64,000 bases of DNA from a virus, in IMG/VR virus record IMGVR_UViG_3300042397_002774, positions 96,927 to 160,926 of that record. One strand, written 5' to 3'. Below the pieces are notes generated by a model. It was not told the DNA's origin. It made no database searches and saw nothing but the letters and a program-made list of their open reading frames with translations. A program made the position numbers and the translations under genes. Shown in pieces: positions 14,593-44,303 of the stretch. Each line of letters starts with the position of its first letter. Position 1 is the stretch's first letter.

Positions 14593-16185
14593 TTAAACAG
14601 TTTCTAAACCATGAACGATCACTTTACCATAGAATTCAGGACGAACCATTTTCTTAGCGTAACGAGTCATCAAACCTTTACGTGGAGTAAATGTTGTTGG
14701 ATCGTATACTAATGGAGTCATCATTACAGGGATGTAAGGAGCAAATACAGCACCAGTTTCTAAGAACTGAGCACCTTTATAACCCATCAAGATGATGTTT
14801 TCAGTGAAGTAAGGGTTTTTGTAAACTTTGTAACGGCTGTTTAAAGAACCGATCTTTTGGATACCGAAATTGAATTCAGCTTTATCACCATCACCATCAG
14901 AAGCAAATCCTGGGATTGATTCTAAGATAGTTGCAACAGTTGGAGATACTACTAAGAAGTTAGCACCACCACGTAATGTTAATTGGTGAATCTTGTTAGA
15001 TACTTTTTGTAACTTAGTACCTAAAGTTTGGAACCAACCACCTTGAGTGTTGAAGAAAGTGTTTGTTAAAGAAGCGAAAGCGCTACCGTTCCAAGCTACG
15101 TTGTTCTGAGCTGACCAATATTCAGTAGTTGAAGTTGGTACGTTCTTGATCAACATTTCTAAGATTTCTAAATCGATTTCCATAGAGATGTATTGGCTCA
15201 TCAAGCTAGTTAATTCAGCTTCAGCGTCGATTGAATGGTAAGCATTCAAATCTTGAGCGAATTCTGGAGTCCATTGTGCTTTTAACTTACGAGTTTTAGC
15301 AACAACTGCTTCAGACTTCATGTTAACGTCTAATGAAGGGATAACGATTTGAGAAGCGCTGTTAGCGTTAGGTACGCTGTAGTCAGCTCTGTCTTCGAAA
15401 TCACCACGAGCGTTATCACGGTTAGCTTTATTGTAGAATAAAGTTACAGTACCGTGAGCTGGAGAACCAGTTGCGATGAAGATCATATCATTACCAGATA
15501 CTTTAGTGTACTGAGGTAAGATTGTAGATTCGTCGAAGTTAGAACCACTAACGAAACAAGCTCTTGCAGCTTCTAAATCTTGGTCAGTTTGAGCAGCACC
15601 GTTAGTTACAGTGATTTTCTTTAAAGAACCTGTAGCTACAGTTGAATCGAAGTTAACGTCAGCTAACAATACAGAAGAAGTAGCTGCAGTTAAAGATGCA
15701 GAGAATTGGTTAATTGAATAACCGAATTTACCAACACCATATAAACCTTTAGTGATGTCAGTTGACTTTAAGTCAGCAGAAGCACCATATAAAGATCCAG
15801 CAAATGCTTTCTTATCAGTACCATACTTGAAATCAAGATAGAAGATAAGACCTGAAGGTAAGCTCATTGATTGAACTGAAACGAATTCTTTAGCGCTGAT
15901 ATCACCGAACACACGGCGAACTAACGGTAAAGCAACTCCAGCCCAGTTTTCACCAAAACCACCAGCACCGAAAGTAGCAGCACCACCACCTAAACCAGTT
16001 TGGTTGCTTTCTACTACTAATTGCTTAGCTTGGTTTTCTAATAAGATAGCCATGTTGTTTTTCTCAACTTCGCCTTTAAGACCTTCCAAAAGGCCAGACT
16101 TAGCCCACTTAGAGACTAAGGTGTTAGCTGTATCCATTACACGAGCGTAAGGATTAGCTGATTCTAATAATTGTTGAATTTCCAT
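14593..16185 (-). CDS. Major capsid protein, T4 gp23-like
   Basis: 530 residues, close to T4 gp23 (521). The N-terminal ~60 residues are helical and charged (MEIQQLLESANPY ... KQLVVES), like the gp23 propeptide that the prohead protease removes. A likely cut is after VVE at residue 59, just before the Gly-rich GLGGGAATFGAGGFGENWAG. The rest has the HK97-fold capsid pattern (ALPLVRRVFGDISAKEFVSVQSM; VSPTVATILESIPGF). The start of the propeptide resembles the leader peptides on other proteins in this window. It follows the scaffold gene by 25 nt and precedes a strong terminator, as fits very high expression. Confidence 0.95.
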   Translation of the reverse strand: MEIQQLLESANPYARVMDTANTLVSKWAKSGLLEGLKGEVEKNNMAILLENQAKQLVVESNQTGLGGGAATFGAGGFGENWAGVALPLVRRVFGDISAKEFVSVQSMSLPSGLIFYLDFKYGTDKKAFAGSLYGASADLKSTDITKGLYGVGKFGYSINQFSASLTAATSSVLLADVNFDSTVATGSLKKITVTNGAAQTDQDLEAARACFVSGSNFDESTILPQYTKVSGNDMIFIATGSPAHGTVTLFYNKANRDNARGDFEDRADYSVPNANSASQIVIPSLDVNMKSEAVVAKTRKLKAQWTPEFAQDLNAYHSIDAEAELTSLMSQYISMEIDLEILEMLIKNVPTSTTEYWSAQNNVAWNGSAFASLTNTFFNTQGGWFQTLGTKLQKVSNKIHQLTLRGGANFLVVSPTVATILESIPGFASDGDGDKAEFNFGIQKIGSLNSRYKVYKNPYFTENIILMGYKGAQFLETGAVFAPYIPVMMTPLVYDPTTFTPRKGLMTRYAKKMVRPEFYGKVIVHGLETV

Positions 16186-17490: not shown

Positions 17491-19002
17491 TTAAGCAGCT
17501 ACTATTTTTTGTGCTAGTTGTATAACTTCTGCTGTTTTAAATGCTGCTGCTCCTCCTTCTAATCCTTTTATAACTAAATTAACGGCATTAGCAGCTTCAA
17601 ATCCTGAGGCTACAGCAGCTGCGGTTAATATAGCGGCATAAACTCCATGAGCGGCATCATATAACGGTGATGTTTGATCAAATGGGTCTTGATTACCAAA
17701 TTTTTTAGGATATGCTTTCTTTAACACATAAGAAATTGCTTCAATATATTTGTGTTCTAAGTCATGCCCCTTTTTTTGCAACCATTGTCCTACTTGTGTT
17801 TGTCCTACAGCTCCATAAGAAAAATAATTAGCAGCTCCATCAACAGCTTTACCAAGTAAATTTATTAAACCTGGAGCACCTGCAGTTAGCGCAAATAATG
17901 TAAGTGGTCCTAGTTCATTTATTTGTCCATCTTTAGGAGATGGTTTTATTGTTGATGCTGCAGATTTAAGATCTCCTAGTATATCTAGTAATCCTTTTTC
18001 AACTCCTTGCCCAACATTAGCTTCTACTTCAGTAATAATACCAGCTAATTGCTGCATTCTTATAATTTCATTGATATTAGATTTCATTTCTTGAATTTTA
18101 ATTTTTGTATTAGAAATACTATTTACTTTTTCTTCTATAGATTTTATAGTTTTATATAGATCTTTTAAAAATTCTTTATAACCTTCGGGGTTATGTTGTT
18201 TTATTTTAGATAAATATTCTAAATATTCTGATAGAGCATAATCTGAGTCGGAAGGTGTTCTTATTATTTGGCTTACAAAGTTAAATATTTTTTGGAAAAA
18301 TTTTCTACTACCTGTTCCATCTATAAATTCTTTTGTTTCAGTACTAATAATTTTAGTTTTACCTGCAAAATATTGTAATATGTTTAACAGTGCTTTTTCA
18401 ATCCTTTTAATATCTCCGGGATTATTTGTAGTATTTAATACTCTATCAGTTCCTGTTATTAAGGATTCAAAAAATTGACCAGTAAATGTTTGAAATTCAG
18501 CCCATGATTTGTAATAAATAGCTTCATCATTAGGATCATAAGCTTGTTTTAAATAATGGTGGTTTAAGGCAGGATCTTTAGCATGTATTAACTCATGTTT
18601 AAGAGTCTGTCTTAACCTTTCAATACCTGTATTTTCATTTCCAGTAACAGTTTTATAAAGTCTTTGATCAAAGTCTTGAAAACTATTAGGTCCCGGAAAA
18701 AATTGTTTAAAATAGGTTTGATTTATAAAAATCCAATTATCTGTTCTATTATTTTTATCATACGTAGAAAATTGACCTTTAGCATTTTTGTCAATAGCAC
18801 CAACACCAATTTCTACTTCTCCTTTTTCACCATCAGAATAGATGTATGATATTTTACCAGCAGACCAAACCTGCCCACTACTAGGAATATTTTTGGTTTT
18901 AATAATCTCAATTATTTCTGGGATTATTGTTTCTAGTTGTTGTCTTTCTTCAGGGGTAAGAGTTAAAGTTCCTTCTTCAATTATGTTTAGTAACTTTATC
19001 AT
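17491..19002 (-). CDS. Metallopeptidase-like / head-targeted protein fusion
   Basis: 503 residues that look like two proteins joined. Residues 1-300 start with the leader MIKLLNIIEEG and contain LKHELIHAKDP (HELIH at 136-140), a zinc-metallopeptidase HExxH motif. Residue Met306 begins MKSNINEIIRMQQLAGI, almost the same as the natural N-terminus of the 225-residue protein at 22691 (MKNQLNEIKRMQQLAGLLNE). The remaining ~180 residues are Ala/Gly-rich with hydrophobic stretches (LTLFALTAGAPGLINLLG; AAILTAAAVASGFEAANAV). It lies between the prohead protease and the scaffold, so it is probably a head component or cargo. The substrate is unknown, and the metal site is inferred from the motif only. 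Confidence 0.6.
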   Translation of the reverse strand: MIKLLNIIEEGTLTLTPEERQQLETIIPEIIEIIKTKNIPSSGQVWSAGKISYIYSDGEKGEVEIGVGAIDKNAKGQFSTYDKNNRTDNWIFINQTYFKQFFPGPNSFQDFDQRLYKTVTGNENTGIERLRQTLKHELIHAKDPALNHHYLKQAYDPNDEAIYYKSWAEFQTFTGQFFESLITGTDRVLNTTNNPGDIKRIEKALLNILQYFAGKTKIISTETKEFIDGTGSRKFFQKIFNFVSQIIRTPSDSDYALSEYLEYLSKIKQHNPEGYKEFLKDLYKTIKSIEEKVNSISNTKIKIQEMKSNINEIIRMQQLAGIITEVEANVGQGVEKGLLDILGDLKSAASTIKPSPKDGQINELGPLTLFALTAGAPGLINLLGKAVDGAANYFSYGAVGQTQVGQWLQKKGHDLEHKYIEAISYVLKKAYPKKFGNQDPFDQTSPLYDAAHGVYAAILTAAAVASGFEAANAVNLVIKGLEGGAAAFKTAEVIQLAQKIVAA

Positions 19003-19006
19003 AATA

Positions 19007-19615
19007 TTAGCATAAAGGACAAACTCCTGTTGCGTTACAAATAATTTCTGTAATTAATCCGTTTACTTTGCTATAGTCTTTACTAGATTGTACTTTTTTA
19101 CCTTCAGATAATGACATATAAGCACCCGGAGTTGATGGTACTGATACTAGATCCCAACATAATAATTCAAAATCGTCTTGTACCTCTACTGTTTCACCCA
19201 ATTGCTTAACACTACCCATACCACGAGATGAAATACCTAATGGAATGCCGGCTAGTACAATTTCTTGTGCAATTTTACCTGATGGTGTGTTTAATAATTC
19301 TAATTCACCCATTACATCATTACCTTCCCACCAAACCTTAGTGATTATATGAGAAACGTTATTTAAGTTAATAATTGATGATTCTGGGTGGTCTAATTCA
19401 CCTGTTGCTGTTCTAGTAGCTACAGGTCCTTTAGTATACATTTCTACTTGTTTTCTAAGAATATTCATAGGATAAACACGACCATTACCGTTTTTAACTT
19501 CGGCTTCTTGTAATTTACCTTTGATACGCATTCTAGTACCAGTTCCTTCTTTACCTTCAGATAAAGTAAGTTTAGCTACGTGGAATGGTGTATGATCTAC
19601 TAATAGTTGTTTCAT
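19007..19615 (-). CDS. Prohead core protease, gp21-like
   Basis: 202 residues, similar in length to T4 gp21 (212). The fold features of the S78 prohead protease family are present: GRVYPMNILRKQVE near residue 46, the His of GELDHPES (H76), and the catalytic Ser in GIPLGISSRGMG (S129/S130). This protease matures the prohead by cleaving the scaffold, capsid propeptide and internal proteins after short (L/I)xE-type sites. It is placed directly before the fusion gene, scaffold and capsid. The C-terminus ends with an unusual Cys pair (GVCPLC). Confidence 0.92.
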   Translation of the reverse strand: MKQLLVDHTPFHVAKLTLSEGKEGTGTRMRIKGKLQEAEVKNGNGRVYPMNILRKQVEMYTKGPVATRTATGELDHPESSIINLNNVSHIITKVWWEGNDVMGELELLNTPSGKIAQEIVLAGIPLGISSRGMGSVKQLGETVEVQDDFELLCWDLVSVPSTPGAYMSLSEGKKVQSSKDYSKVNGLITEIICNATGVCPLC

Positions 19616-32741: not shown

Positions 32742-33284
32742 TTATGCTTCTGCTGGTGGAGGAGTTTCTTCTGCTGGTGTTTCTTCAGGTGTAGCTGGGG
32801 TTTCAGCTCCTGATAAATCATTAAATGCTGCTTCGCCAGCATCTGGTGCTGCAGGAGCTTCTGGAGCTGCTGCGTCTGCAGGTACTGCTGTATTTGCATC
32901 TTCTTTAAGTGCAGGAGATAATGATAATAAATTTGATACAGCTTGGCTTGCTTTATCTATAGCACTACCCATAGCTAAATCATATCTTTTACCTGCTACT
33001 TTAGCTATAAAAGTACCACCTGAGTATACTAATTGGAAATCTAATCCATTGATTAATTCAATATTAAGAGTTGTTGGTTTTGGAGCAACAACAGTAACAC
33101 TGCTTAAATATCTACTAAATGAAGGAGACATTATTGATTCAACAGCATCTTTTAATTTAGGAAAACGATATATTAAATACAAAGATTTTTCAGCACGCTT
33201 GATTGCTTGCTCTTCCTCTTGCAATCTTTGTCTGATTGCTTTTTTAATATATTTTTCTAATAATATTTTTTTAGTATTCTCCAT
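32742..33284 (-). CDS. Leader-bearing protein with Ala/Pro/Glu tail
   Basis: 180 residues. The N-terminal helix [20 protein letters not shown] is followed by LQEEEQA. A compact alpha/beta domain comes next ([20 protein letters not shown] ... [20 protein letters not shown]). The last ~50 residues are a low-complexity Ala/Pro/Glu tail ([31 protein letters not shown]). The start overlaps the upstream stop region by 14 nt. No function is recognised; the tail may be disordered. Confidence 0.5.
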
Positions 33285-33642
33285 TATTTTCCATTTCGTT
33301 AGCTTCTTCAGTTAAATATTGTTCTATACTATTCATATAATCTGAAGCTAAAGTAATATATGCAGATACCCAACCTGGTAATTGTTGGTTAGGTTCGATC
33401 ATTTTATAAATTTTAGAAGCATTTTCTACCATACTTCTTAGTTCACTTTTAGCCATTGTGGCTTCGTGATCTTCAGTTTTAGGCCAAGTTAAATGAGTTT
33501 CTTTAACTAAAGCTACAGCAATTTTTTTACGACGATTAGCAAGATAAGAATCTGTCTTATTTACTTTACCATCATTGTTGATGTCTTTATCTTCTTTACC
33601 CACTGGGTCTAAGCCTTCTACTAAATTTGATAATCTAATCAT
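33271..33642 (-). CDS. Leader-bearing protein with EF-hand/dockerin-like loop
   Basis: 123 residues. It starts [11 protein letters not shown]. Residues 20-31 ([12 protein letters not shown]) match a calcium-binding EF-hand or dockerin loop (D-x-N-x-D-G-x-hydrophobic-x-x-x-D), followed by [13 protein letters not shown]. The C-terminal half is a helical bundle ([20 protein letters not shown]). If cut after the leader VEG/LVE site, the loop would sit at the new N-terminus. Calcium binding is inferred only from the pattern. Confidence 0.6.
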
Positions 33643-35374: not shown

Positions 35375-37985
35375 TCTTTTTTTCGTTTATATGTTTACGA
35401 AGTAATTCTTTAAATTCTTTTATATGACCTGGATGATCTGCTAAATATTCATTTACAATATACTGATGTGCTTCTGCCAATCCTCGTTGTTGTAATGCTG
35501 TTAATAAATCTGCAGGTGAAGCTAATGGAAACGCATTATTACCACCTTCATTACCTGTTAATATATAGTTACTATTACCTGGTTGTACATTAATAGATGC
35601 TATCACTTGTTGGTTAGCTAATCTAATAATATATATTTTACTAGCACCAATTTGAATTACTCGTCCTACTCTACCTGATGTACCTAATAAGTTATTACGA
35701 CGAGAAGCACCTCTATCACCATTTGGATCAACACGGGATGCATTATTAACATTTAATCTTCTTAATATAGCTCTTGGTAAACGTAAATATGCTACTTCTA
35801 ATCCAATTGCATTCATTTCTTCACGAACGTTTATATCACCTGCTGCTGGAGCTGCGGCTGCCTGACGAGGAGCATTTGGTACACCTGCTGGTCTACCTCT
35901 TCTACCTGTTGTAGTAGCACCTGCAGCAGCGGCAGCTGGTGCAGCAGTACCTAACATTTGTGCTGCTTTAGAAGCAGGAATATTAGCAACAACTAATTTA
36001 CCTGAATTAGAAGATACTGTGTAGCTTGTTCTTGGATTTGTTGTATTAATAATGTAAGGAATACCTTCATAAATAACAGATCTAAGTACACTACCAGCTT
36101 GCATTGGGGGGTTAGCTCCAATAATAGCTTTTCTAATATCACCACCGGAATAACTGCTTACATTTTTTATAGCATTTATATAGTCATTATCACTAAATGC
36201 TAAATTCTTAGATCTTAAGTAATCAAACCATGCAGAATATACTAATCCATTTGCAATAGGTGAATTTCTAATTTGTTGCCTCCAATCCATTCCTGACCGT
36301 CCATAAACTGCTGTAAATATCAGACTAGTTGTACTTCTTTCTAAATATTGAATAAAAAATGGAGAATCAGGACTTTCAGTTGTAAGTACAACTGCTGGTC
36401 TTCCATCCCACTCAATAATTCTTTTATCTGCAGGTATAGATTTTAATAATGAAACAAATGCATCTTTATCTATAGTATTAGGAATATTATCTCTAACATT
36501 AAGTAATGATAATGCATTCTTTTGGAATCCTTCATTATCTTTTTGTTGTGTAAATACTTCTTGTACCTCTTCATCATCGAATGGTACTTTAGAAACTTTA
36601 TCACCGTCTATTTTATAAGATACAAATGAATTAGAATCAATTAATATTGTTTTGTTATTAATATCTTTAGCAATAATAGCTGAGTTGCTGTCTGTTTTTG
36701 CTTTTTCGATTACGTTATCTAATACACTTTTATCAATTACTTCATTAGAAACTAATGTTATTAAATTTTTAAAAGGAATCTTATCTAAATCTGGGTAGTC
36801 TAATAAGTAACGTGATGTACGTTTATTTAATTTAATATTAGGATAATCATCATCTTCAGTATATAATCCTACTTTAATGTCTTCACCAAAAGTTAATTTA
36901 ATAATACTTTCATTATCTTTGGTAACATATATCCTTTCATTTTTAGGAACATCCCATTTATCAAATTTAACTAAAAATTTCTTAATTTCAAATGAAATAG
37001 AATCTAGAGTTAGATATTTCAACTCTATTTTATCTCTCATATTTGCTATGATTGATCTTGTATCTCCATTTGAGAATTTATCTAAATTTTTAACTAAAGT
37101 TATACTATTTAAAATACCAAAATTAGTAGCAATAGTATTAGCAATTTGTGGATATTTTGGTAAGTATTTTTCTACAAAAGTATCATTACTAATATCTTGG
37201 AATAATTCTCTACCTTTTCTAACAACTAAATATTGTTCTTTAGCTTTAAAAGGAAGTTTAGCCCACTCTCTAACACCAATGGGATTATTTTTATATAATT
37301 GATTTATTTTTTCTTTGTTAGATAAAGGAATATATTTGAATACACTTCTTAAACCAGTAACTGAAGGGAAATTTTGTTCAATAAAGCTCCATGGTTCCCA
37401 TCTATCCCATTCTGTAGCTCTACCACCAACATCATTATTTGATCTGTCTGATGCTTTATAAGTGTCATCTTTACCAACAACCACAACAAAGAAACTCTTA
37501 CGATCGCTATTAGGTAAATTTGTATCTTTTACTAAATAAAATGTTGGGTTTTTTCTATTATCATCATAACGATAGTTACCAAATGAACCTCTGGTAATAC
37601 ACCAAGATTCACCTCTACCGAAATTTAAACAGTTTTCTTCTTTAGAACCATTATATATAATTAAACCATTCTGGTCATAAACCACATCTGGAGTAATGTC
37701 AACTTCTTCTTCAGGTTCTTCAACACCTTTAGTTGAAGTTACTAATTTTATTAATTTAGATAAACTATATTTACGTAAATCTTTTTCAGTAACTTTAGGT
37801 GAATTTTTTAAAGAATCAAAACGTTCAATATATGCTTTTAATTTATCATCAGCAATTTCAATATTTAAATCATCAGCTTCTTCTTTAAATTTAGTCATCA
37901 ATTTATTAATCTCACCTTCTGAGTATTCATTAAGGGAAAATAAATTGTGTGTTACGTGAATTATGAATTTGTCAATTGCTCTCAT
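35361..37985 (-). CDS. Large AT-hook-containing protein (unknown)
   Basis: 874 residues, coupled by TAATG to the DUF5872-like gene. The N-terminal ~90 residues are helical (MRAIDKFIIHVTHNLFSLNE ... KVTEKDLRKYSLSKLIKLV). Residues ~105-200 hold a conserved-looking core (NGLIIYNGSKEENCLNFGRG, ESWCITRGSFGNYRYDDNR, PTFYLVKD). The long middle is alpha/beta. Near residue 700 an Ala-rich linker contains GRRGRPAG, an AT-hook core. The C-terminal ~150 residues are a separate domain. Proteins with the FCISxRGSGNYYDxYRY-type core appear in other marine phages (from memory), without known function. DNA contact is suggested by the AT-hook. Its size makes it a candidate for an injected or DNA-modifying effector. 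Confidence 0.5.
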   Translation of the reverse strand: MRAIDKFIIHVTHNLFSLNEYSEGEINKLMTKFKEEADDLNIEIADDKLKAYIERFDSLKNSPKVTEKDLRKYSLSKLIKLVTSTKGVEEPEEEVDITPDVVYDQNGLIIYNGSKEENCLNFGRGESWCITRGSFGNYRYDDNRKNPTFYLVKDTNLPNSDRKSFFVVVVGKDDTYKASDRSNNDVGGRATEWDRWEPWSFIEQNFPSVTGLRSVFKYIPLSNKEKINQLYKNNPIGVREWAKLPFKAKEQYLVVRKGRELFQDISNDTFVEKYLPKYPQIANTIATNFGILNSITLVKNLDKFSNGDTRSIIANMRDKIELKYLTLDSISFEIKKFLVKFDKWDVPKNERIYVTKDNESIIKLTFGEDIKVGLYTEDDDYPNIKLNKRTSRYLLDYPDLDKIPFKNLITLVSNEVIDKSVLDNVIEKAKTDSNSAIIAKDINNKTILIDSNSFVSYKIDGDKVSKVPFDDEEVQEVFTQQKDNEGFQKNALSLLNVRDNIPNTIDKDAFVSLLKSIPADKRIIEWDGRPAVVLTTESPDSPFFIQYLERSTTSLIFTAVYGRSGMDWRQQIRNSPIANGLVYSAWFDYLRSKNLAFSDNDYINAIKNVSSYSGGDIRKAIIGANPPMQAGSVLRSVIYEGIPYIINTTNPRTSYTVSSNSGKLVVANIPASKAAQMLGTAAPAAAAAGATTTGRRGRPAGVPNAPRQAAAAPAAGDINVREEMNAIGLEVAYLRLPRAILRRLNVNNASRVDPNGDRGASRRNNLLGTSGRVGRVIQIGASKIYIIRLANQQVIASINVQPGNSNYILTGNEGGNNAFPLASPADLLTALQQRGLAEAHQYIVNEYLADHPGHIKEFKELLRKHINEKKNANK

Positions 37986-38404
37986 TATTTATTAAACTTT
38001 ACTTTTGCTTTATCTGTATTAGATACAAATTGCTTACCTTTTTTAGACCCAGCTACTTTTTTACGTGATGTAGCAGCGCGTTCAGCTTTAGTTAAACGAT
38101 TTGCCTTAGCACGAGGTAAACAACGAGTTGTTGCTTTATCTTTTTTCATTGTACCACAAGGACCAGTTATGTTACCTTGTGTATCAATACGAACCCAATC
38201 TTCTTTTTTAAACCAATCACGAAGAGATTCATGTAAATCTAAATCATCTTCTTCCATTAATCCTTTACATACCTTAACAGCACGACCAGAAAGATAAGCT
38301 GATGGTTTTTCACCAGCAGCTCTGCGACGATCATAATAAGCTTTACCTTTTTTGCAAAGCTTTTCTACAATGATCTGGTCTAGTATTTCTTGTAATTTAA
38401 TCAC
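37985..38404 (-). CDS. Leader-bearing DUF5872-like protein
   Basis: 139 residues from a GTG start (GTGA overlap with the upstream stop) that aligns MIKLQEILDQIIVEK with the leader group. The middle has CKKGKAYYDRRRAAGEKPSA. The C-terminal ~70 residues match DUF5872 from memory: LRDWFKKEDWVRID, GPCGTMKKDKATTRCLPRAK, LTKAERAATSRKK. Two conserved Cys and many basic residues suggest a small metal- or nucleic-acid-binding domain. The family has no known function. Confidence 0.65.
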   Translation of the reverse strand: MIKLQEILDQIIVEKLCKKGKAYYDRRRAAGEKPSAYLSGRAVKVCKGLMEEDDLDLHESLRDWFKKEDWVRIDTQGNITGPCGTMKKDKATTRCLPRAKANRLTKAERAATSRKKVAGSKKGKQFVSNTDKAKVKFNK

Positions 38405-38664
38405 AATTTTTGAATTTTGATTACCAACGAGCCATTGCCTTTAATAGTGCGATGCCAGGTATGTTTTGGTATAAATATCGATTTATTTATAAGTGTTGGT
38501 AATTCGTCTTCAAGTTGTATAAACCAATCTGTGGGTTGTGTGGGTTCAATAAGACGGTCTTCATTATCACGATGCCAAAGAAGTTCGATGGGATCTATAT
38601 TTTCATCGAACTCTCTAATAACATATTCTTTTGTTATCTCTAAATCAGTATAAGGATGACTCAT
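38401..38664 (-). CDS. Small cupin-like protein
   Basis: 87 residues. It reads IELLWHRDNEDRLIEPTQPT, then WFIQLEDELP, LINKSIFIPKHTWHRTIKGN and LVIKI. The order of beta strands with His residues (WHRD, KHTWHR) resembles a minimal cupin, often a dioxygenase or sugar-binding fold, but it is short. A coding-region copy of the ATATTTAT motif (38471-38478) lies 67 nt before the next gene. Confidence 0.5.
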   Translation of the reverse strand: MSHPYTDLEITKEYVIREFDENIDPIELLWHRDNEDRLIEPTQPTDWFIQLEDELPTLINKSIFIPKHTWHRTIKGNGSLVIKIQKL

Positions 38665-39074
38665 AACAATATTTCATCTGGTACTTTAAACTGCCATATA
38701 GTAGCTTTACCCTTTTGTAGCATCAATGCTGTAAGTCTAGTATTACCACCAATCAATTCTTTGTATCCATCTGAATATAAAGCAACAATTGGCATTTCTA
38801 CATTGCCTGCTTCAATTTGAGCTAATGCTCTTTTTTGTTTTTCTGGGTTTAAAGTTTTAAAAGTACTTGGTTCATCTGCGTTAGTATTATTTATATCCTT
38901 TGCAGAAGTTAAATTAACAGGTTTACCAGTCTTAGCTAATTCTACCCATTTAGCTTTACCTAATTTTTTAAATTCAGGATAGCGTTTTGCTTCCATCCAT
39001 TCTTTTTCAAAATTAGGATTGCTATATTGAACAGAATCTGTAATTTCTTTTAATATGTCGAATAATTTAATCAT
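38661..39074 (-). CDS. Leader-bearing ParB/sulfiredoxin-like protein
   Basis: 137 residues from the ATG at 39074, which overlaps the upstream stop as TAATG; a TTG two codons earlier is less likely. The leader is MIKLFDILKEI. The C-terminal half has the ParB-type N-terminal domain signature MPIVALYSDGYKELIGGNTR followed by LTALMLQ, where the GGNTR box corresponds to the GxxR nucleotide-binding motif of the ParB/Srx fold. ParB-like domains can bind CTP or ATP, or cut DNA. The exact activity here is unknown. Confidence 0.65.
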   Translation of the reverse strand: MIKLFDILKEITDSVQYSNPNFEKEWMEAKRYPEFKKLGKAKWVELAKTGKPVNLTSAKDINNTNADEPSTFKTLNPEKQKRALAQIEAGNVEMPIVALYSDGYKELIGGNTRLTALMLQKGKATIWQFKVPDEILL

Positions 39075-39682
39075 TACCAAAATCCACCAAATGATGTTTT
39101 AAAGCCTAATAATTTAGCATATCTTGGTAAACGACATGACCAATATGATGCTTTTGTTCTATCTTTTTTCTGAGCGCATTTATGGCGAGCTGCAAATGCT
39201 TTACGGGCTTTTGGATTATTTAATTTAGCTCTTAATCCTGTAGTATCACCAAATGATACTTTTTTAATACCCCCACCCGGTTTACGAACATATACATAAA
39301 ACTTTTTAGAACCACCACGTTTTGGTTTACCAATAGGAGGTGTTTTCTTTTTATCTACTTCGTTTATAATTTCTTCTAAACTGATTGGGTAATCTAAAGG
39401 AACATTGAATCCATTATAATTATCAATTTCACCAATATTAGATTCTAATAATTCAGCATCATCTTCAGTTACAGATAATATACCTTTATTATATAATTCA
39501 CGTGCTTCACGAAATAAAGCAAAATAATTATTAGATAGGGGGCGGTAGATATTGTGAATTAACTGTCTACCTTCAGTTATATGGTATTTCATACCTTCAG
39601 ATAACAATATTGATTCTTTACCTTCAGATATTATTTGAGGACCATTGCAGCCACAATCTTGTTCTTCTTGTAAATTTATCAT
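39074..39682 (-). CDS. Leader-bearing Cys/Trp-domain protein
   Basis: 202 residues. The N-terminus MINLQEEQDCGCNGPQIISE has an LQE site and a Cys-x-Cys pair. A helical middle (FALFREARELYNKGILSVTE) leads to the C-terminal domain KKFYVYVRKPGGGIKKVSFG, KARKAFAARHKCAQKKDRTK, ASYWSCRLPRYAKL. The ARHxCxxxxDxTxxxYWSCRxxR core is recurrent in marine phages from memory (DUF6321-like) and may bind a metal or nucleic acid. Its function is unknown. Confidence 0.6.
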   Translation of the reverse strand: MINLQEEQDCGCNGPQIISEGKESILLSEGMKYHITEGRQLIHNIYRPLSNNYFALFREARELYNKGILSVTEDDAELLESNIGEIDNYNGFNVPLDYPISLEEIINEVDKKKTPPIGKPKRGGSKKFYVYVRKPGGGIKKVSFGDTTGLRAKLNNPKARKAFAARHKCAQKKDRTKASYWSCRLPRYAKLLGFKTSFGGFW

Positions 39683-39998: not shown

Positions 39999-40579
39999 TA
40001 CGATTGGGTTATTGCTTTTACCTTCTCAATATATTCCTGGAACTCTTTAACTAATTCGCTATTATTCCCACCAGACCATTGTTCCATTTCACCATTCTCA
40101 GTAACAATTTGTTCTGGGTGTACATCATTAATTAAATCTTGTAATATTTGTTCAAGATCACCAATAAATCCTTTAGCGTTACGTTGAACCATGTCTTGAA
40201 CATATGCTTCGTATTGACCATCTAAACGTAATTTAGTTTCTCTTGTAATAACACAATCAAAGCATTCTTTATGTATTGCATACATTTTAGTATCCAATAC
40301 TTTTTTCTTCATTGCTTTACCGCACTTAGGACATGTAAGAGGAATTTGAAGGGCTTTCTTAACTAAATCTAATTTGGATATGGTCATCTTGATACCATTT
40401 TTAATGGTCCAATTTTTCCCATTTTCTTCCCAAATATCGCCTTCTTTACGATCAATATTTTCTTTAGTATAACCTACTTGAGTTGAGATCTTATCTCCGT
40501 ATTTTTTATTTACTATATTTCTTACTCTCTGTACATCTTTTTCTCGAAACTCTTTTTTCAAAACACTTTCATTCATCAT
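39998..40579 (-). CDS. Zinc-ribbon-like protein (unknown)
   Basis: 193 residues, coupled by ATGA to the upstream gene. The N-terminus MMNESVLKKEFREKDVQRVR is helical. A Cys motif LTCPKCGKAMKK ... HKECFDC (CxxC plus HxxCxxC) in the middle looks like a zinc ribbon. The C-terminal half is acidic and helical. A zinc ribbon in a small phage protein suggests nucleic-acid or polymerase contact. The family is unknown to me. Confidence 0.55.
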   Translation of the reverse strand: MMNESVLKKEFREKDVQRVRNIVNKKYGDKISTQVGYTKENIDRKEGDIWEENGKNWTIKNGIKMTISKLDLVKKALQIPLTCPKCGKAMKKKVLDTKMYAIHKECFDCVITRETKLRLDGQYEAYVQDMVQRNAKGFIGDLEQILQDLINDVHPEQIVTENGEMEQWSGGNNSELVKEFQEYIEKVKAITQS

Positions 40580-41964
40580 AAACCTAATTCTTTTAATTGT
40601 TGAATTGTATCAGCAGCTGAAGTATGTAATACACCTACACCACCTGCATCCTTCCATCTTTGAATATTATCTGCTCTATCATCAATCAATATTGATTTAG
40701 GAGACGCATAAAATTGTTTATACTCTGCTGATTTAAGAAGTAATACTGTACCTGGGAGATTTTGTTCTACCCATTTTTGTTTTCCTGTTCTTGAAGATTC
40801 TTGTCTTGAAGGAGCTGAAAGTAATTTAGGAGAATATGGTTTAATGTAATTCCATAGTTCTTGACCATCTTCCATCCACTCCATTTCAGTCCAAAATGAT
40901 TCACCAGCATCAGTTATTGGTTGCCAAAAATCAGCATCACCCTTAACATGATTTCCTCTAATATTTTTGCCTGTTAGTTTTTCATAAGCACCTTCAAAGT
41001 CAACAATAACACCATCCATATCGCAATAGATTCTGTATTGTGGTGATTGTGCTTCGAATATCATAGGATTAATTTGTGCAAATTTTCTCATTATTTGCCC
41101 TGCTTTAGAATTTGCTTCGTTTTCAGTATCAGAACCTGTAGTTCCGTCTAAAGGTTGACCTTTTTGTTTTTGTGATAAGTGTACCAATTCATGAGAAACA
41201 GTTCGGCAAATATCAGCCATATTACGGTTACCCGTATAAATCCAAATCTTGTCGTCTTGTGGACTATATAACCCCATTGACCTCATTTCTCTCGCTTTCT
41301 CCGTATCCCTACTTATCACGATTTTTCCCCCTCCCCCCTCAATACCCAATTCACGTAGGGTAAATCTAATGAACTCCTTTAATAAAGACAAGTTTTCTTG
41401 GCCTTCTTTTAACTCTTCTTTTTCCGTGTCGCCCATTGTATAACCAGCAGCATCCATGAATTGCTTCACATCAATACCATCTGGTAAAAATTTTTTGATT
41501 AGGTCTTCTTTTTTAGATTTAATTGCTATTCTAAAATTAGTAGCACTTATATTATCAAATGTTCCTGCATTAAATAATTCAGCATTTCTATATTTTTCAT
41601 TTGAAAGAATAGAATTAAAACGAGTAAATTCATCTTTACCAAATGCTGCTACAATTTTAGCTTCTGGATTTGATGTAATTATGTCATAGGTTTCTCTAAC
41701 AGGATTTTCATCTACAACTAAAAAATTAACATTTCCTGGCAGTAAGGTTTTATATAATTCCCACACTCTATAACTTTCATCAGCTGTAATTCCTTCACGA
41801 GTTTTAGGAGAGATAAAGACTTGAACTTCATCACACATATCTGATAAGCGTTTAACAACATTAAAATGACCTTTATGTGGTGGTTTAAATGCACCTGGGA
41901 ATACACCAATAACGTATTGTTTTTCCTCTAATAATTGTTTTGCTATGTGTTGTCCTAAATTCAT
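40576..41964 (-). CDS. Nucleotidyltransferase / HExxH / HAD phosphatase fusion
   Basis: 462 residues with three modules. First, after the leader MNLGQHIAKQLLEEK, a cytidylyltransferase-like domain with GVFPGAFKPPHKGHFNVVKR (HxGH at 30-33) and a matching SATNFR near 140. Second, residues ~195-300 with TVSHELVHLSQKQK (HELVH at 258-262) and a downstream acid-rich helix (TENEANSKAGQIMRKF), a metallopeptidase-like domain. Third, a HAD-type phosphatase (YCDMDGVIVDF at 313-323; LIDDRADNIQRW) close to 5'(3')-nucleotidases. It is adjacent to a P-loop kinase gene. The combination suggests transfer and removal of a nucleotide or phosphate, with unknown substrates. Confidence 0.75.
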   Translation of the reverse strand: MNLGQHIAKQLLEEKQYVIGVFPGAFKPPHKGHFNVVKRLSDMCDEVQVFISPKTREGITADESYRVWELYKTLLPGNVNFLVVDENPVRETYDIITSNPEAKIVAAFGKDEFTRFNSILSNEKYRNAELFNAGTFDNISATNFRIAIKSKKEDLIKKFLPDGIDVKQFMDAAGYTMGDTEKEELKEGQENLSLLKEFIRFTLRELGIEGGGGKIVISRDTEKAREMRSMGLYSPQDDKIWIYTGNRNMADICRTVSHELVHLSQKQKGQPLDGTTGSDTENEANSKAGQIMRKFAQINPMIFEAQSPQYRIYCDMDGVIVDFEGAYEKLTGKNIRGNHVKGDADFWQPITDAGESFWTEMEWMEDGQELWNYIKPYSPKLLSAPSRQESSRTGKQKWVEQNLPGTVLLLKSAEYKQFYASPKSILIDDRADNIQRWKDAGGVGVLHTSAADTIQQLKELGL

Positions 41965-42800
41965 TACTGCACAAATGATTTTACTTTAGATATAATTTCT
42001 GATTCAGATAAAACGGATTCTTTAATTTTTTTATCAATATTAATGAATTCGCGTTCTAGCTGCTCTACTTGTTTTTTATAGTTTTCTCTTGATTTTTCTG
42101 ACGCTTTATCCTTTTTAGCCTGCTCATCAGGTGATAAAGGTTCATCTTGAGTTTTACGAAAAGTTGATATAAACTGTTCTGGATTTGTTTGAGTTAATTG
42201 TTCTAACCAATCAAATAATTTACCTTGTTGAACGGCTTGATTAAACCCATTAATTTCTTTTTGATACTCTTGATCAGGAGCTTGATATAATACAAAATTA
42301 TCTCCTAATTTATTTTTATAAGTATCTATATTTCCATAAACATTATTCCATGTTTGGATAACACCAACTTTAGGTACTCTACGTTCACGTTTGAAATTCC
42401 TTAAAAATGATACAATTGGGTGAGCATACACCATAATCATTAATGTATCATAATTAGACGCAGTGTTTAATAAACCTGGTACTTCTTTTCTTTTATATAG
42501 ACCACCGATTAATTTAGCGGCATTAGATGCGGTAGTATCCCAAATAAACGCCTTACCTGATGAAAGTGCATTAGGTACGTCAACATCATCTACTTGAGCA
42601 GAAGCCGCTGTAAGATTGTTGAACATTTCACTTGATTTATCTTCAATGTACTTATCTGGGTTGATTATTTCAAACCCAGGTGTTACACCTTTAATTTTAT
42701 TTATTAAAGTAGACTTCCCAGCTCCGGCGCCTCCCGCCATGATTATCATTTTATTTTGAGGCATTGCTGCTTCCATTAATAAGTCAATTAATCTGATCAT
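41964..42800 (-). CDS. Leader-bearing P-loop kinase (zeta-toxin/PNK-like)
   Basis: 278 residues. The leader MIRLIDLLMEAAM is followed at once by the Walker A motif IIMAGGAGAGKSTLINKI (residues 19-36), an Asp-containing DKY after ~20 residues, FIWDTTASN, and a basic lid (FLRNFKRERRVPKVG). This resembles zeta-toxin or polynucleotide-kinase-type phosphotransferases. The C-terminal third is a charged coiled coil. It overlaps the nucleotidyltransferase/HAD gene by TAATG, implying joint function. The phosphate acceptor is unknown. Confidence 0.7.
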   Translation of the reverse strand: MIRLIDLLMEAAMPQNKMIIMAGGAGAGKSTLINKIKGVTPGFEIINPDKYIEDKSSEMFNNLTAASAQVDDVDVPNALSSGKAFIWDTTASNAAKLIGGLYKRKEVPGLLNTASNYDTLMIMVYAHPIVSFLRNFKRERRVPKVGVIQTWNNVYGNIDTYKNKLGDNFVLYQAPDQEYQKEINGFNQAVQQGKLFDWLEQLTQTNPEQFISTFRKTQDEPLSPDEQAKKDKASEKSRENYKKQVEQLEREFINIDKKIKESVLSESEIISKVKSFVQ

Positions 42801-42861: not shown

Positions 42862-43602
42862 TTACTTATGTAAAGTTACAGTACCATTATTATCAATCAA
42901 TATAGCACTCATATTTTCAACCCAATCACCACTATTCAAATAACGTTTACCATTAATTATTCTATCCTCAGGTTGATGGATATGTCCACAAATAACACCA
43001 TTACATCCTTTTTTATGAGCCATGGATAGTGCTGTGGTTTCAAAATCATTAATATAATTAGTAGCAGCTTTAACACCACCCTTAATCTTTTGTGATATAG
43101 ATTGATAAGGTAATTTTCTCCATTTACGGTAATTGTTATATACTCTATTTAACCATAATGCAAAATCATATCCAACAGCACCTATTTTAGCTAACCATTT
43201 GTATTTTGTTATAAAAACATCCACAACATCTCCGTGAAAAATATAATAATTTTCATTCCTATATACATCATTTTCAACCCAAACTTTTGTATTGAATACA
43301 TAATCTTCTCTAATTTCAATGCCGCCGAAGTGCATTCCAATAAATTCTTGTATAAATTCGTCATGATTTCCTCTAATCCAGATTATCTGGGTTTTATTAG
43401 ATAATTTTAATAGTTTTGAAATAACTTTAGTATGGTGTTTTTTCCATTTAGAACCTCTGTTTATTGCCCACCCATCTACTATATCACCATTAAGGATTAA
43501 TAAAGGTGTTGGGTGTTTATCTAAAAATTCGATAAATTCCTCTGCTTTAGAATCTTTAGTTCCTAGATGTAAATCCGATACTATAATTGCTTGATATTTC
43601 AT
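42862..43602 (-). CDS. LpxH-like metallophosphoesterase
   Basis: 246 residues. Calcineurin-type motifs are complete and in order: SDLHLG (9-14), GDIVDG (39-44), RGNHDEF (77-83), FHGDVVD, and CGHIHQPE. The family includes UDP-2,3-diacylglucosamine diphosphatase (LpxH), which acts in lipid A synthesis at the inner membrane; a Trp/Tyr/Arg-rich region (LNRVYNNYRKWRKLPY) could bind membrane. It is coupled by ATGA to the glycosyltransferase gene. A role in altering host envelope lipids or sugars is inferred; another phosphodiester substrate cannot be excluded. Confidence 0.8.
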   Translation of the reverse strand: MKYQAIIVSDLHLGTKDSKAEEFIEFLDKHPTPLLILNGDIVDGWAINRGSKWKKHHTKVISKLLKLSNKTQIIWIRGNHDEFIQEFIGMHFGGIEIREDYVFNTKVWVENDVYRNENYYIFHGDVVDVFITKYKWLAKIGAVGYDFALWLNRVYNNYRKWRKLPYQSISQKIKGGVKAATNYINDFETTALSMAHKKGCNGVICGHIHQPEDRIINGKRYLNSGDWVENMSAILIDNNGTVTLHK

Positions 43603-44303
43603 TTCCAGTAGTTATGGTGGTGTTTAAAAAATTCAGGGTTATTTCTGTTTAAATAACTTTTTATCATAATCCAAAACATATAACTAACTCCCTTATTTTT
43701 AAACCTTCGTGCTGATGTAAATATTCCGTTTGATTTATGAATCCAAAATTTATTAGATTTTACTTTAGATGATAGTGAATAATCTTCTGCAAATAATTCA
43801 TCTTCTTTATATCCGCCTAACTCCCAATATTTTTTAGTATTCCAATATTGAAACCCACCAACAGCAAATGGTGTTCCTAATTTTATACTTAATAGTTGAA
43901 ATAAATCAAATAATCTAAAAACCCAATTCCACCCCTTTTCAGTTTGGAAGGGTACTGTTAGTAAATCTCCTTCAAAATCAGATATAACGTCTAAAACTGT
44001 TTTATCAAGCAACATTATATCAGCATCTATAAATAAAATATAGGGGGTATCAACTAATTTCGAGCCTTCAAGACGCGCTTTAGATGGATACCCCCCTTTA
44101 ATTATTTCTATATTAAGAGAATGCTTATAATCAATTTGTGCTCTATATAACCATTCTAATGATTCTTTATCATCAGAATTATCCGCAATTATTACTTTAG
44201 TTCCTGCAATGTTTTTTTGCTTGCATATAAATCCTAAACAATCGTATATATTAATACTTTCGTTTTTGCAAGGAATTACAATAGTAAATTGATTATTATT
44301 CAC
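43599..44303 (-). CDS. Family 2 glycosyltransferase
   Basis: 234 residues from a GTG start; no ATG lies nearby in frame. The GT-A fold is seen: FTIVIPCKNESINIYDCLG, VIIADNSDD, KARLEGSKLVDTPYILFIDA, then the DxD motif (DAD), and FAVGGFQYWNTKKYWELGGY with the acceptor-site acid in LFAEDYSLS. It transfers a sugar from a nucleotide donor. It has no predicted membrane helices apart from a weak hydrophobic stretch near the end. It overlaps the phosphoesterase gene, and together they may modify host surface glycans. DNA-base glycosylation is an alternative. Confidence 0.85.
   Translation of the reverse strand: MNNNQFTIVIPCKNESINIYDCLGFICKQKNIAGTKVIIADNSDDKESLEWLYRAQIDYKHSLNIEIIKGGYPSKARLEGSKLVDTPYILFIDADIMLLDKTVLDVISDFEGDLLTVPFQTEKGWNWVFRLFDLFQLLSIKLGTPFAVGGFQYWNTKKYWELGGYKEDELFAEDYSLSSKVKSNKFWIHKSNGIFTSARRFKNKGVSYMFWIMIKSYLNRNNPEFFKHHHNYWK

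Follow-up and report, generated by a model that had tools for sequence, protein, structure and literature searches.

The stretch of viral DNA analysed here (the window) comprises 64,000 nucleotides, positions 96,927 to 160,926 of IMG/VR record IMGVR_UViG_3300042397_002774, and is the final 64 kb of that 160,926-base record, which by its gene content is a large T4-like bacteriophage of ~161 kb. Inside its late head-gene cluster, two genes sharing one base (41964) encode a P-loop kinase and a fusion of a nucleotidyltransferase, a zincin and a HAD phosphatase. We consider it likely that both are head-packaged accessory enzymes that would be released into the host on infection. The leaders, motifs, active sites, protease gene, gene order and junction sites are read from the sequence, and from them we infer packaging, cleavage and injection for this phage. 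A prior sequence-only reading of the region had described the two open reading frames (ORFs) as overlapping, with a leader on each, and a fusion combining HxGH, HELVH and HAD motifs; these were all recovered, and the fusion motifs are conserved in relatives. The features are:

41964..42800, minus strand: zeta-toxin/PNK-type P-loop kinase gene, 278 aa (ORF list, AlphaFold2 (AF2) model, PDB fold, Pfam)
42771..42800, minus strand: kinase leader MIRLIDLLME, 10 residues, predicted to be cut before A11, with the spacing of T4 IPII and IPIII
40576..41964, minus strand: three-domain fusion gene, 462 aa (ORF list; three confident AF2 domains)
41926..41964, minus strand: fusion leader MNLGQHIAKQLLE, 13 residues with L-x-E at its end, conserved in related loci L003-L007
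41437..41916, minus strand: HxGH nucleotidyltransferase domain, aa 17-176 (TIGR00125 above cut-off; PDB matches to NMNAT/PPAT)
41401..41412, minus strand: candidate prohead-protease site LKE/G (slash, cleavage point) between domains 1 and 2, aa 185-188, inside a linker of pLDDT <50
41065..41394, minus strand: IrrE/ImmA-like zincin domain with HELVH, aa 191-300 (weak Pfam DUF6782 match; IrrE-like fold match in BFVD)
41050..41061, minus strand: candidate prohead-protease site IFE/A between domains 2 and 3, aa 302-305, in a second confidence dip
40579..41040, minus strand: HAD phosphatase domain of NT5C/5'(3')-deoxyribonucleotidase type, aa 309-462 (phrog_2643, 5.5e-29)

The leaders carry much of the argument. 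The kinase begins MIRLIDLLMEA and the fusion MNLGQHIAKQLLEEK. T4 internal proteins IPII and IPIII start MKTYQEFIAE/A, and the kinase's MIRLIDLLME/A is spaced identically. The T4 gp21 protease cleaves after L/I-X-E, with leader residues 4 and 7 acting in targeting and 8 and 10 in processing (PMC9026906). The kinase leader, hydrophobic at 4, 7 and 8 with E at 10, fits the T4 capsid-targeting sequence (CTS) pattern exactly, and both propeptides lie in the 10-19 residue range and end in L/I-x-E (LLME/A, 10 residues, in the kinase; LLE/E, 13 residues, in the fusion). Allowing any in-frame start, the exact 10-residue pattern is found in 77 of 112 related kinases, in 6 of 37 head-cluster genes and in 2 of the 158 other genes of this genome (head cluster vs the rest, Fisher p 7e-4). 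An [LIVMF]xE motif precedes the P-loop in 119 of 121 kinases (shuffles: mean 60, max 73), the two exceptions being proteins without a leader. Pelagiphage-type kinases start MITYEQFIKE/G, and the leaders of cyanophage nucleotidyltransferases read MKNFSSFLTE/A (S-CREM2 ORF154) and MKKFSAFLNE/A (S-SM1). The leader also appears to be a detachable module, because related enzymes exist with and without it: a pol-beta enzyme in locus L006 reads MIKLIDIAKLIVE/GGNVF where its counterpart in Flavobacterium phage immuto reads MGGNVF, the homology beginning exactly at residue 14, and HADs occur both with a leader, MIKLLDILKE/AEEQQYKIYCDMDG, and without one, MSEYKLYCDMDG. Both window leaders are probably of the T4 capsid-targeting type.

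A candidate cutter for such leaders is encoded in the same window, where the portal, terminase, gp21-type protease and gp23 are all T4-like by PHROG profile matches:

19007..19615, minus strand: gp21-type prohead protease (phrog_207, head maturation protease, 4e-54)
14593..16185, minus strand: gp23 major capsid protein (phrog_138, 2.6e-67), its N-terminal region holding an LVVE/S site
38661..39074, minus strand: leader-bearing neighbour protein, MIKLFDILKE/I, in the same cluster as the kinase and fusion

In the mechanism we propose, the N-terminal leader would take kinase and fusion into the prohead scaffold core, and the gp21-type protease would cut after L/I-x-E, removing the leader from each. 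The same protease would cut the fusion at LKE/G and IFE/A, giving three mature enzymes: a nucleotidyltransferase (aa ~14-187), a zincin (188-304) and a HAD (305-462). Packed in equal numbers, these would accompany the DNA into the cell, as would the kinase.

Virion data come from cyanophages. The orthologous nucleotidyltransferase was found by mass spectrometry in S-SM1 virions (PMC3037559) and, as ORF154 with 3 unique peptides, in those of S-CREM2 (PMC10665884); a further study detected an NMNAT-like protein in S-SCSM1 and cites one for S-CBWM1 (PMC9602691). The sequence-only reading had named presence in virion proteomes as a check; this is borne out for the orthologous nucleotidyltransferase, while in the literature searched we found nothing equivalent for the kinase, zincin or HAD. 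Its step from leaders to packaging and injection is well supported by the T4 CTS-like leaders, the gp21 gene in the window and the cyanophage nucleotidyltransferase data.

The junctions of the fusion suggest a further role for the head protease. The AF2 model of the fusion (pLDDT 88.5 overall) has three confident domains separated by a linker at aa 179-189 (pLDDT <50) and a second dip at aa 301-310 (mean 66). The only two [LIVMF]xE/[AGS] motifs in the window fusion are LKE/G and IFE/A, one per low-confidence junction, and both are retained in L002-L007, where L003 has S in place of A and L005 has I in place of L. Among relatives, the motif precedes the fused HAD in 32 of 32 (shuffles: mean 16.4, max 24; upstream control stretches, 2/32 and 9/32) and lies between nucleotidyltransferase and zincin in 89 of 101 (shuffles: mean 46, max 60; flanks, 18/101 and 22/101). 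Kinase-HAD fusions read ...MLAE/AEQQYKLYCDMDG and free HADs ...ILKE/AEEQQYKIYCDMDG, so that cutting would give both a near-identical mature HAD start. Because L/I-x-E stands at both inter-domain junctions, the fusion looks like a polyprotein that may be split in the head. This is good, though not conclusive, evidence that fused enzymes retain their former leader sites and would be separated by the head protease.

These sites could instead be nothing but Glu-rich flexible linker in a stable multifunctional enzyme, an explanation that we regard as improbable. Linkers are indeed Glu-rich, and shuffled linkers show the motif about half the time. Against this, at each of the two junctions the motif is more frequent than in any of the shuffles, and in the immediately adjacent stretches it is rarer than chance; fused and stand-alone HADs would also share a mature N-terminus.

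A number of points weigh against packaging, injection and cleavage. The fusion leader fits the CTS only with its longer, 13-residue spacing, and in the window it is followed by E at P1', where L007 has A. In the HAD and nucleotidyltransferase families, the exact CTS pattern is present in only 16%. At the junctions, L/I-x-E is short, linkers are rich in Glu and shuffled sequences attain roughly half of the frequency seen in the real ones; moreover, the related sequences share ancestry and their counts are not independent. The junction statistics are optimistic for these reasons. A tblastn search with the window kinase against annotated phage records found no close relative, and the literature searched yielded no proteomics of this phage or of any Bacteroidota relative. 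The authors of the cyanophage mass-spectrometry studies warn of co-purification. That caution also favours a role for the leaders in assembly alone, with the enzymes used late in the infected cell and the virion copies being passengers or scaffold parts, as does the position of the genes in the late head-gene cluster. We think this quite unlikely; even distant relatives keep every catalytic residue, which would be needless for mere structural filler.

Relatives, gathered by scanning viral contigs followed by profile search of the loci, indicate that the enzymes form a set. The order kinase, nucleotidyltransferase-zincin, HAD is conserved, with all three at 51 of 79 HAD loci. Counted as distinct ORFs, uncorrected for overlapping loci, the architectures comprise 65 nucleotidyltransferase-zincin, 33 nucleotidyltransferase-zincin-HAD and 8 kinase-HAD proteins, and 76 free HADs. 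That the HAD joins either partner suggests that the parts act in concert. A single cluster of Pelagibacter phage HTVC008M contains the kinase, nucleotidyltransferase and HAD genes, and there, too, the kinase gene overlaps that of the nucleotidyltransferase. T4-like cyanophages carry the nucleotidyltransferase, annotated as 'cytidyltransferase', and in total 555 phage records match the HTVC008M protein.

What the enzymes would do is suggested by their folds and active sites. Structural models, named as a check by the sequence-only reading, are confident for the kinase (AF2 pLDDT 91.8) and for each of the three fusion domains. The kinase has the Walker A motif GGAGAGKS. Among its 39 relatives, reached via HTVC008M and metagenome contigs and spanning identities down to 21%, the invariant residues are E10 in the leader, A22, G23, G28, K29, N47, D49, D88, Y117, M121, N135, R138 and R140. 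Pfam Zeta_toxin (PF06414) matches 38 of the 39 at E<0.001; relatives score 50 bits, and the window kinase, at 20.7, is just below the gathering cut-off of 22.3. On these profile matches, the kinase is probably a member of the zeta-toxin family. Its top PDB fold match is 4gp6, the Clostridium thermocellum Pnkp kinase domain, followed by thymidylate kinase (TMK), zeta toxin and the tRNA kinase PSTK. The nucleotidyltransferase has a complete HxGH/SxTxxR active site (FKPPHKGH and ISATNFR), conserved in relatives, a TIGR00125 score of 32.5 against a cut-off of 27.7, and NMNAT, NaMNAT and PPAT as its closest folds in the PDB. Assignment to NMNAT, PPAT or another NCBIfam subfamily was rejected, no equivalog cut-off being reached and only the general domain model passing. 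The zincin keeps its HExxH and downstream E in relatives. In the HAD, the motifs DMDGV...S...K...IDD are present and invariant or nearly so among relatives; NT5C Pfam matches 16 of 24 relatives, the window copy falling below the cut-off, and PDB matches are mostly 5'(3')-deoxyribonucleotidases, the best being 4mum. On these profile and fold matches, the HAD is a member of the NT5C 5'(3')-deoxyribonucleotidase family.

Our first choice of role, offered tentatively, is that the kinase, the NMNAT/PPAT-like adenylyltransferase and the 5'(3')-nucleotidase have nucleotides or nucleotide cofactors as substrates and, immediately on entry, shift the pools of these (NAD-type or nucleotide) or the signals made from them. 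Such an adjustment at entry might serve takeover or counter-defence, which we propose with the same reserve.

The sequence-only reading had likened the set to T4 polynucleotide kinase-phosphatase (Pnkp, the product of pseT). That likeness is weakly supported by the kinase fold and lid and by the kinase-HAD order of some relatives, and it fails for the remaining parts: the HAD has no detectable relation to the T4 phosphatase, and the HxGH enzyme groups with NMNAT and PPAT. An RNA end-repair kit would have the kinase phosphorylate 5'-OH ends and the HAD strip 3'-phosphates of cut tRNA or RNA, countering anticodon nucleases from the first minute. By fold, the kinase comes closest to the kinase domain of a bacterial Pnkp, with PSTK among the matches, and hhalign pairs the kinase with T4 PseT at 96% (E 2.9e-9) with the RN..R lid in common, a distant homology that also lies near zeta and PSTK. 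Eight kinase-HAD fusions follow the T4 Pnkp order, relatives have pol-beta nucleotidyltransferases next door, and the BFVD matches include a viral protein that bears the name tRNA ligase/uridine kinase. We nevertheless judge end repair unlikely. A T4 Pnkp-type phosphatase was rejected for the HAD, which is NT5C-like and shows no hhalign relation to it (0.9-1.4%, with profiles of 7 and 24 sequences; 1.4% at best). Across the record, the RNA ligase profile PF09414 found no match while its control worked, which counts against end repair; the T4 Rnl1 profile PF09511 gave no match there either, its positive control being silent as well. HxGH enzymes, moreover, are not known for activity on RNA ends, which tells against this role too.

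Alternatively, the kinase and NMNAT-like domain could counter NADase defences by restoring NAD(P) or a related cofactor, in the manner of phage NARP pathways. NARP2-type NAD salvage combines NadV with NMNAT. A NadV/NAPRTase profile search of the record, with a working control, found no match, which argues against NAD restoration, and a NadV-based NARP2 pathway was rejected on that ground. The HxGH domain is closest to NMNAT, NaMNAT and PPAT, the zeta-like AvrRxo1 is among the kinase fold matches, and cyanophage virion orthologues are annotated as NMNAT-like (PMC9602691); set against these, the nucleotidyltransferase reaches no equivalog cut-off. We are doubtful of NAD restoration.

Other genes of the window and its relatives extend the picture. 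The nearest annotated relative found is phage immuto, which infects Bacteroidota and matches many genes, and the host of the window phage is probably a member of the Bacteroidota as well. Between the gp21 and scaffold genes (17491-19002) lies a 503-aa protein with the leader MIKLLNIIEE/G and a HELIH zincin motif, a further candidate packaged metalloprotease. At 33271-33642, a small leader-bearing protein has a Ca-binding-like repeat in common with the cyanophage 'cytidyltransferase' PHROG 764. The proteins at 37985-38404 and 39074-39682 have conserved modules at their ends, phrog_23735 and phrog_7595 (in phrog_7595, RGGSKKFYVYV..ARHKC), which recur in Pelagibacter and Methylophilales phages and are fused to the nucleotidyltransferase in Melnitz. 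Adjoining the kinase (42862-44303) are an LpxH-like calcineurin phosphoesterase and a family 2 glycosyltransferase, both without leader; the pair is present in L006 and missing from the corresponding position in L003, which looks like a cargo swap. The phosphoesterase was set aside as a Pnkp partner, being LpxH-like by eye and lacking a leader. At the equivalent place, immuto (L010, 8309-11942) and L009 (3050-7242) have a pol-beta nucleotidyltransferase gene and a giant fusion of pol-beta and HxGH nucleotidyltransferases with two HExxH-type domains. In S-CREM2 (L022, 10013-10726), a pol-beta nucleotidyltransferase (NTP_transf_2 above cut-off) is two genes away from the cytidylyltransferase and appears in the virion proteome as a hypothetical protein (PMC10665884); it is likely a further packaged enzyme. 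A DUF6267 protein (L011, 1673-2905; L023, 9296-10270), directly upstream of the S-SM1 virion cytidyltransferase and in the same cluster in HTVC008M, has a KWDGAPAI sequence that recalls nucleotidyltransferase/ligase motif I (KxDG) and is possibly a ligase-type enzyme.

Several known systems resemble this set. The T4 internal head proteins (IPI, IPII, IPIII and Alt) likewise are accessory proteins that combine a short leader (hydrophobic residues at 4, 7 and 8, then L/I-x-E) with a gp21-type protease, whereas the window set consists of small-molecule/nucleotide-type enzymes, conserved together, partly fused with putative internal sites and known here from sequence. The cyanophage cytidylyltransferase/NMNAT-like virion protein (T4-GC190; S-SM1, S-CREM2 ORF154) has a homologous HxGH domain, the same leader type and the same class of neighbourhood, but it stands alone or has other tails; the available parts of the S-SM1, S-CREM2 and S-SCSM1 reports describe no zincin/HAD fusion or leader. 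T4 PseT has a P-loop kinase of the same superfamily, and some relatives of the window kinase have its kinase-HAD order; unlike the window proteins, its HAD is of another family and it lacks a leader, whereas the window has separate chains and an extra nucleotidyltransferase and zincin. The Zeta/PezT toxin kinases match in Pfam family (38 of 39 relatives) and fold, while the window kinase differs in its RN..R.R lid, as in polynucleotide kinase (PNK) and PSTK, its capsid leader and its Pfam score below cut-off; no antitoxin was recognised among the ORFs neighbouring it. The polyvalent proteins of phages and conjugative elements (Iyer et al. 2017, PMC5512222) are also multi-domain, predicted to enter with DNA and place HExxH beside effector domains; the window fusion is short and enzyme-only, with predicted gp21-type sites rather than zincin self-processing alone. 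Thus, CTS-bearing enzymes in T4-like heads and an NMNAT-like virion protein were already known. New relative to the literature searched are T4-type leaders, as recognised by their sequence, on these enzymes, a conserved set that includes a zeta-type kinase and an NT5C HAD, and a fusion with candidate head-protease sites at its joints.

These observations tie a widespread, unannotated phage enzyme set to the T4 capsid-targeting signal. CTS leaders would account for the recurrence of NMNAT-like proteins in cyanophage virions, and they provide a simple sequence rule to predict injected proteins of marine and freshwater T4-like phages. They are also potential tags for loading foreign proteins into phages other than T4. 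Should the fusion be cut in the head, the prohead protease would have a second function as a cargo polyprotein protease, a use unreported in the literature searched. More broadly, T4-like phages may fuse leader-bearing enzymes, pack them in a fixed ratio and cut them in the head, so that an injected kit of zeta-type kinase, NMNAT-like nucleotidyltransferase, zincin and deoxyribonucleotidase would act before phage gene expression, a generalization whose chances we put somewhat short of even.

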